Source: Sinimarinibacterium flocculans
GTDB lineage: Bacteria > Pseudomonadota > Gammaproteobacteria > Nevskiales > Nevskiaceae
Assembly (NCBI RefSeq): GCF_003201205.1
Contig: NZ_QICN01000004.1
Span: forward strand, 186,001-250,000
Direction: 5' to 3'
DNA: 64,000 nucleotides
How positions within the stretch are numbered: the first letter of the stretch is position 1; every line of letters starts with the position of its first letter. Positions 27,893 through 29,659 of the stretch are shown piece by piece. Made by a program: the position numbers and the translations under genes. The notes under the pieces are model-generated. The model searched no databases and was not told where the DNA came from. It saw nothing but the letters and a program-made list of their open reading frames with translations.

Positions 27893-29659
27893 ATGTCCGC
27901 TTACCGGCACATCAAGATTCCCTCGTCCGGCGAGAAGATCACCGTCCGCGACGGCAGGCTGCACGTGCCCGACCAGGCGATCGTCGGCTATGTCGAGGGC
28001 GACGGCATCGGCCCGGACATCACCCGGGCCTGCCTGCGCATCTGGGATGCTGCGGTCGAGAAGGCCTACGGCGGCAAACGCAAGATCCACTGGTGCGAGA
28101 CCTACCTGGGCGAGAAGGCGGCCGGGCTGTACGACGGCAACTACTGCCCGGACGAGACGCTCAAGGCGCTGGCGGAACTGGTCGTGTCGATCAAGGGACC
28201 GCTGACCACGCCGGTAGGCGGGGGCTTTCGCTCGCTCAACGTGGCGCTGCGCCAGGACCTGGACCTCTACGCCTGCGTGCGCCCGGTGCGCCACTACGCG
28301 GGTGTGCCGAGCCCGCTGAAGAATCCGGGCAAGGTCGACGTGGTCATCTTCCGCGAGAACACCGAAGACGTGTACGCCGGTATCGAGTACAAGACCGGCA
28401 CGCCGGAGAACGAGAAGATCGCGCGCTTCCTGCGCGAGGAGATGAAGGCGAAGTTCTTCGAAGGGGCGGGCCTGGGGATCAAGCCGATCTCCGAGTTCGG
28501 CTCCAAGCGCCTGGTGCGCAAGGCCATCCAGTACGCGATCGACAACGGTCGCGAATCGGTGACCCTGGTGCACAAGGGCAACATCATGAAGTTCACGGAA
28601 GGGGCCTTCCGCAACTGGGGCTACGAGGTCGCGCGCGACGAGTTCGGCAGCGTGACGATCACCGAGGAACAGCTCTACGGCGAGTACAAGGGCAAGCAGC
28701 CGGACGGCAAGATCGTCATCAAGGACCGCATCGCCGACATCATGTTCCAGATGATGCTGCTGCGGCCGGAGGAGTTCGACGTCCTGGCCACGATGAACCT
28801 CAACGGCGACTACCTGTCGGATGCCATCGCGGCCGAGGTCGGCGGCGTCGGCATCGCGCCGGGCGCGAACATCGCCGATCACGTCGCGGTCTTCGAGGCG
28901 ACCCACGGCACGGCGCCCAAGTACGCCAACCTCAACAAGGTCAACCCGGGTTCGCTGCTGTTCTCCGGCGTGATGATGCTGGAGTACATGGGCTGGAAGG
29001 AGGCCGCGGACCTGATCACGCTGGTCTATCCGGAGGTCGTCTCCGACGGCATCGTCACCTACGACTTCGCCCGGCAGATCGACGGTGCGACCGAGGTCGG
29101 CACCTCGCAGTTCGCGGACGCGCTGATCGAGCGCATCCACGGCGGCGTCGATCTCGAGGCCAAGCGCAAGGCGCAGCAGGCGCAGCTCGTCAAGGAGCGC
29201 AAGCAGCGCGAGATCCGCCGCCTGCTGCAGCCGCTCGAGGAGATGGTGGACACCGGCCGCGTGCCGACGACGGTCGGCGACCTGATGACGCGTTCGCTGA
29301 TCACCGTGAGCGATGGCGAGACCGTCGAAAGCGCGATGCACGTGATGACCGACAACGACATCAGCTCGGTCGTCGTCGAGCCCGACGCGAAGGGGGAGTG
29401 GGGCATCCTGACGCGCCGCGACATCGTCACGAGGATCGTGCACGCCGGCAAGAATCCGGCCACCACGCGTGTGCGCGACATCTGCAGCCGCCCGGTGACC
29501 TCGGTGCCCGCCGAGATGAGCATCCGCGAGGCGGCGGCGATGATCTCGGATACCCACTTCAGCCGCCTGACCGTCGCCCAGGGCGAAAAGATCATCGGCA
29601 TCGTCACCGAAACCGACATCTTCAACGCCGTCGACAAGTTCGCATGGACGGCAGAGTGA
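27893..29659 (+). CDS. icd: NADP-type isocitrate dehydrogenase fused to a C-terminal CBS-domain pair
   Basis: 588 residues, about 170 longer than Escherichia coli Icd (416). Residues 1-416 are a complete decarboxylating dehydrogenase: the [23 protein letters not shown] region carries Ser114, equivalent to the serine phosphorylated by IDH kinase/phosphatase; substrate and cofactor motifs [24 protein letters not shown] and [10 protein letters not shown] follow. A charged linker (417-458, rich in Lys, Arg, Gln) leads to two CBS motifs (about 459-520 and 525-585; [42 protein letters not shown]). CBS pairs usually bind adenine nucleotides, so energy-state control is inferred. No stop or frameshift separates the parts. 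Confidence 0.95.

Follow-up and report, generated by a model that had tools for sequence, protein, structure and literature searches.

Can an isocitrate dehydrogenase (IDH) carry its own sensor of the cellular energy state? Bacterial enzyme phosphorylation has its textbook example in the control of isocitrate dehydrogenase by AceK, and of the 75 class genomes that gave a strong isocitrate lyase match, 40 showed no AceK in our searches. An IDH subfamily with a sensor-like tail of its own would supply a direct answer for part of these 40 AceK-less genomes. A protein of this form is encoded in the window (the whole stretch of 64,000 nucleotides analysed here), and if its tail acts as proposed below, energy charge would be read by IDH itself at the TCA/glyoxylate branch point. 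Automatic naming masks the tail, as the best name-giving model, TIGR00183, returns a plain isocitrate dehydrogenase (NADP(+)). Both halves of the protein are of known kinds and the combination is unreported in the open-licence literature searched; a report elsewhere is possible, and domain databases presumably list the architecture.

The idh-CBS gene and its neighbours

The features considered in this study are as follows (coordinates of the window):

27893..29659, + strand: idh-CBS gene, 588 aa (single frame; homologues)
27893..29140, + strand: type I NADP-isocitrate dehydrogenase part, residues 1-416 (TIGR00183; PDB 5m2e, 1ai2)
28232..28234, + strand: codon of Ser114, the residue matching the AceK target Ser113 of E. 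coli IDH (1ai2 alignment)
29141..29263, + strand: charged linker, residues 417-457 (full-length model, alignment; helix 421-445 predicted)
29273..29443, + strand: first CBS domain, about residues 461-517 (PF00571, alignment; limits estimated from the model)
29471..29632, + strand: second CBS domain, residues 527-580 (best Pfam stretch, alignment)
26039-26611, - strand: Fe/Mn superoxide dismutase (neighbour scan)
26770-27111: monothiol glutaredoxin (neighbour scan)
27172-27894, strand opposite to idh-CBS: DJ-1 family gene (neighbour scan)
29802-30611: molybdopterin-binding-domain protein (neighbour scan)
57076-61960, + strand: methylcitrate genes prpB, prpC and acnD in a row

The preliminary description of this DNA had proposed an IDH that runs without a stop through a charged linker into two CBS motifs, and the single 588-aa frame, with its Pfam and TIGR00183 matches, bears this out. 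The frame is uninterrupted from the ATG at 27893 to the stop at 29657-29659. Earlier in-frame starts exist upstream (654 aa from 27695); the homology query began at 27893, and the alignment of E. coli IDH to the fused protein starts at residue 7. A sequencing error or the artificial joining of two genes is ruled out, given that the same frame recurs in many genomes. The DJ-1, glutaredoxin, superoxide dismutase and molybdopterin-domain neighbours leave the fusion unexplained. The methylcitrate cycle, also attributed to the organism in the preliminary description, is represented by prpB, prpC and acnD at 57-62 kb.

The isocitrate dehydrogenase part

By its sequence matches, the IDH part belongs to the type I NADP-isocitrate dehydrogenases, enzymes that are normally dimers. 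Pfam places an Iso_dh domain at residues 31-410 (281.9 bits), and the NCBIfam model for prokaryotic NADP-IDH (TIGR00183) covers residues 4-415 with 634.9 bits (cut-off 567.3), in keeping with the complete enzyme described earlier. In a PDB sequence search, the best 60 of 108 rows all matched the IDH part and none the tail. The serine phosphorylated by IDH kinase in enterics is retained as claimed: Ser114 occupies the place of E. coli Ser113 (1ai2), and the position is a serine in 61/61 fused proteins. Furthermore, K343, Y344, V350, Y390 and R394 align with E. coli K344, Y345, V351, Y391 and R395, which we take to be determinants of NADP specificity, and are kept in 61, 61, 60, 61 and 61 of the 61 fused proteins, respectively; L158, one of six extra fused proteins, has an arginine at position 343.

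Distribution of the fusion

The same architecture was sought in other genomes. Whole-genome searches identified fused IDHs in 41 of the order's 81 genomes, in 17 of 276 genomes of the class and in 24 of 370 class genomes of a larger draw (E 1e-180) that overlaps the 276. Together the 41 and the 24, minus the shared G000, G153 and G325, give 62 distinct fused genomes. In addition, a scan of genome_contigs returned at least 579 relatives, and the best 80 loci were taken, 31 of which extend beyond residue 580 and are fused. Altogether 77 fused loci were counted. Some of these are duplicate records, one is the window's own copy (L081) and another is L044, in which a single frame covers residues 129-585 only; the 77 reduce to 60 distinct full-length proteins besides the window's own. 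Among the matches listed, the closest relatives are from Fontimonas thermophila (90% identical) and Solimonas variicoloris (86%), followed by Panacagrimonas, Nevskia and Stagnimonas, all of them fused and full-length, and relatives at 63-69% identity include Competibacteraceae, Acidiferrobacteraceae and Muproteobacteria. Judged by these relatives, the window belongs to the Nevskiales/Solimonadaceae. The fusion is widespread, and its tail is conserved in many related bacteria.

Conservation, fold and candidate ligands of the CBS pair

The tail contains two Pfam PF00571 stretches (80.9 bits together, best at 527-580). The first CBS domain has the motif W503-G-I-x-T507-x-x-D510, and the second has R558 and G569-x-x-T572-x-x-D575, so that a [ST]xxD motif is present in both domains (T507/D510; S/T572/D575). 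This motif can accommodate the ribose of any adenosyl ligand. Across the 61 distinct fused proteins W503, T507, D510, R558 and G569 are invariant, S/T572 is found in 61/61 and D575 in 60/61 (the exception being L023), and six further fused proteins retain all seven positions. The preliminary description had regarded a lack of conserved ligand residues across homologues as damaging to its proposal; in these 61 proteins T507, D510, R558, S/T572 and D575 are conserved. Residues E440, R443, P447, G455 and P458 of the linker and junction are likewise invariant in the 61. Mean identity to 29 distant members is 77% in the IDH part, 39% in the linker and 39% in the CBS part, and dN/dS over 19 pairs ranges from 0.05 to 0.39 for the CBS part and from 0.01 to 0.22 for the IDH part. 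By both measures the CBS part has changed more quickly than the IDH part, and it is under purifying selection.

A model of the CBS pair based on a 55-sequence alignment reached pLDDT 88.9 and pTM 0.80, and its top Foldseek match was CBS-CP12 (5nmu; E 2.5e-13, TM 0.80 by query length). The title of this entry describes a hexamer, which is compatible with a tail that mainly joins IDH dimers into larger assemblies, with nucleotides modulating assembly and not catalysis. The predicted long helix of the linker would also suit such a role, and proteins of this kind are prone to higher-order oligomers according to PMC10742508. We consider oligomerisation as the main function quite unlikely, as by itself it leaves the invariant T507, D510 and R558 and the conserved S/T572 and D575 unexplained.

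Among the best 50 Foldseek rows, 10 are titled with AMP, ADP, ATP or Ap4A (AcuB, CBSX2, MgtE) and most are without a named ligand; HRP1, TA0289 and Mg2+-bound MgtE appear across the fold and profile matches. When the CBS sequence profile was compared with PDB sequences, the first of 88 matches was 9zni, a CBS protein entry that names no ligand, and the second was MJ1225 (3kh5; E 7.6e-29), whose segment RRLPVV...GIITSTD aligns with R558...T572-D575, R558 corresponding to the second arginine of RRLPVV. We assume that MJ1225 binds AMP, ADP and ATP at the aligned site, that the position of R558 is a phosphate contact in sites of the AMPK-gamma type, and that in MJ1225 and AMPK-gamma such positions presumably provide phosphate and ribose contacts. 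The fold and profile matches establish a CBS pair, not its ligand.

SAM, NAD(P)H and other compounds are further possible ligands of CBS pairs, and control of IDH through one of these in place of an adenine nucleotide would be compatible with the two ribose-holding motifs, which can fit any adenosyl compound. MJ0100 (3kpb), a SAM/MTA-binding protein, is also among the profile matches. The invariant R558, at what we take to be the phosphate-contact position of AMPK-gamma, favours AMP, ADP or ATP, and control by another ligand is in our judgement unlikely. As for c-di-AMP as a ligand of the DarB type, the diadenylate cyclase domain (PF02457) was found in 11 of 14 control genomes and not in the organism's own genome, which makes this candidate unlikely.

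Evolutionary history of the fusion

A tree of the IDH part (68 rows, 414 columns) placed 32 fused rows in one 42-row clade (100/98) together with 10 unfused rows. The fused/unfused label changes six times in the careful tree and four times in the quick tree. Forcing the fused rows to be monophyletic was rejected (AU p 0.002), as was a grouping of all ten unfused rows (p 2.4e-5, for a group defined post hoc from the tree). Over the 61 proteins, distances in the IDH part track those in the CBS part with r 0.91. Together with the shared linker residues, this suggests a single ancient fusion with several later losses as more likely than several gains.

In L100 (G159; L150:5470-6786), loss of the CBS pair appears to be seen almost directly from the sequence. 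Its IDH of 438 aa ends in a linker-like stub, EIEKGIDLSALRKERKAAIEQERNDL, and then a stop, and the gene after the stop resembles a methyltransferase (by eye). A search of this locus with the CBS part was negative at E 1e-3, and the sister of L100 in the tree is the fused L098 (100/96). The stub IDH of L100/G159 constitutes a natural truncation without the CBS pair.

Such losses bear on whether the tail regulates anything. It might be no more than a retained structural or protein-docking tail, and several CBS losses within the same IDH clade, with the bare linker stub of L100, indicate that it is dispensable. Ligand-type residues are nevertheless kept in diverged members and the CBS part is under purifying selection, so that a tail devoid of regulatory function seems to us very improbable.

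AceK, isocitrate lyase and a second isocitrate dehydrogenase

The organism's own genome encodes isocitrate lyase, from which alone a complete glyoxylate shunt is assumed. The aceK gene (PF06315) was not found in it by a search that, among 14 control genomes, matched E. coli alone, and AceK was found in 0/81 genomes of the order, this genome included. The preliminary description had offered CBS control in place of, or in addition to, AceK phosphorylation; the first option accords with these searches and the second does not. Phosphorylation of Ser114 by AceK is rejected for this organism, in whose genome aceK was not found. In the class, AceK was detected in 43 of 276 and 58 of 370 genomes. Only one of the 62 distinct fused genomes (1/24 in the class draw) has an AceK-family protein, that of G190, which is divergent (203 bits, 24-26% identical to four AceKs compared) and 80% identical to a protein in G080.

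The divergent family comprises proteins in G190:C230 (L148:1005-2783), G080:C169 (L153:2417-4288), G390:C141 and G430:C27, with 196-228 bits as opposed to 314-412 for other full-length matches. Those of G190 and G080 each adjoin a similar GNAT-like protein (by eye). G390 has a canonical AceK as well as the divergent form, on which ground the divergent family may have another substrate.

Does the fusion follow the absence of aceK? Over all class genomes, with kinship ignored, aceK is present in 1/24 fused genomes and 57/346 others (p 0.15). Within the IDH subfamily it occurs in 1/24 fused and 6/18 unfused members (p 0.031, kinship ignored; G156, at a contig end, excluded), and in three of the unfused genomes (G238, G140 and G259) it lies directly after idh with gaps of 224-322 bp. 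Among 75 class genomes with strong isocitrate lyase matches, the counts are 1/13 fused and 34/62 others (p 0.0019, kinship ignored); this set was reached by dropping 10 weak matches from 85, and it counts G267 on the strength of a 120-aa fragment and G054 on that of one partial match. A negative association with aceK is nominally significant in the two narrower sets when kinship is ignored, but not class-wide, and a tree-aware swap test on independent pairs yielded 3-5 contrasts only, too few for significance. The contig of G047 ends just after idh, and the absence of aceK there may be an assembly gap.

Isocitrate lyase was found in 33 of the 41 fused genomes of the order (E 1e-35) and, weak matches excluded, in 13 of the 17 fused class genomes from the draw of 276. 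A simple exchange between CBS tail and AceK is weakened by L100/G159, which has isocitrate lyase and no CBS pair and in which aceK was not found, and by four unfused genomes (G095 and G202, and G340 and G341 of the order) that gave neither an aceK nor an isocitrate lyase match. That the fusion is a one-protein substitute for AceK, with tail and kinase interchangeable and swapped during gammaproteobacterial evolution, is doubtful. Loss of AceK-recognition segments was considered as a signature of the fusion by comparing residues 108-122, 156-201 and 227-269 between fused and unfused proteins, and was rejected; a short deletion around residue 187, apparent on comparison with E. coli, is uninformative because unfused relatives with aceK have it too.

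A second, monomeric NADP-IDH is encoded in the same genome (TIGR00178, 1340 bits; G000:C2:59678-61876, L113). The claim of control at the TCA/glyoxylate branch point had overlooked this enzyme: the fused protein is one of two IDHs here, the monomeric form could bypass any CBS control, and the case for tight control is weaker for this organism. Across the order, 50 of the 81 genomes have a monomeric IDH, among them 15 of the 41 with the fusion. In nine of these 41 the fused enzyme is the sole IDH found, as judged by searches for a monomeric IDH and for a second match to P0001 at E 1e-40, with some genomes less than 95% complete, and eight of the nine have isocitrate lyase. In those nine genomes the fused IDH is probably the working TCA enzyme at an AceK-less branch point.

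Proposed mechanism and comparison with known systems

On balance, sequence evidence slightly favours the view that the CBS pair acts on IDH as an allosteric module responsive to adenine nucleotides. It is supported by ligand-type residues that are invariant or nearly so in a CBS part that otherwise averages 39% identity, by the alignment with MJ1225, by purifying selection and by the rarity of aceK. The confident CBS model with its CBS-CP12 fold match, the nucleotide-titled entries among its best rows (10/50) and the retention of residues aligned with the E. coli NADP determinants point the same way, as does the precedent of CBS-pyrophosphatase. Fast evolution of the CBS part, its loss in several lineages, the monomeric IDH bypass and the ligand-unspecific fold and profile matches argue against it. 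So does the full-length monomer model (pLDDT 81.9, pTM 0.68), in which helix 421-445 joins both parts and which is moderately confident and gives no coupling route.

In the proposed mechanism, AMP or ADP, in competition with ATP, would occupy the clefts delineated by T507/D510 and by R558/T572/D575, and the signal would pass via the predicted linker helix to IDH. A resulting change in IDH activity or assembly would place isocitrate use directly under the control of energy charge. Most of the bacteria concerned possess isocitrate lyase, and the searches made found no canonical AceK in them. Ligand, coupling and direction of this control are what we infer. Regarding direction, we tentatively entertain activation by AMP/ADP or inhibition by ATP, by analogy with AceK: according to PMC6591243, AMP and pyruvate together suppress its kinase activity and stimulate its phosphatase activity, so that AMP also pushes that system towards active IDH. 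If AMP activated IDH directly, a single protein would achieve the same result.

A functional precedent is CBS-pyrophosphatase, likewise a metabolic enzyme with CBS domains, for which PMC11172384 describes nucleotides as allosteric, AMP and ADP inhibiting and ATP activating. It is a different enzyme with a different arrangement, and in idh-CBS such an effect is a prediction. E. coli Icd (1ai2) shares the IDH part, the residues aligned with NADP determinants and the Ser113 equivalent; its chain ends at 416 and is AceK-controlled, whereas the fused protein adds a 172-residue CBS tail in a genome without aceK. More broadly, AceK-controlled IDHs of Gram-negative bacteria have isocitrate lyase and the target serine in common with this genome but differ in having aceK, to which AMP is an input (PMC6591243). 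The mycobacterial ICD rheostat also places the branch point under metabolite control and not phosphorylation, in a different IDH for which the portion of PMC4999502 seen describes no CBS pair.

Among oxidoreductases, IMP dehydrogenase also has a CBS module, and the idh-CBS tail matches it weakly. The CBS pair of IMP dehydrogenase is inserted in the catalytic barrel, unlike the C-terminal pair of idh-CBS. Finally, the organism's genome encodes a separate CBS-pair protein (G000:C7:41606-41983, L083; 205-aa frame) that is 28% identical to the IDH tail.
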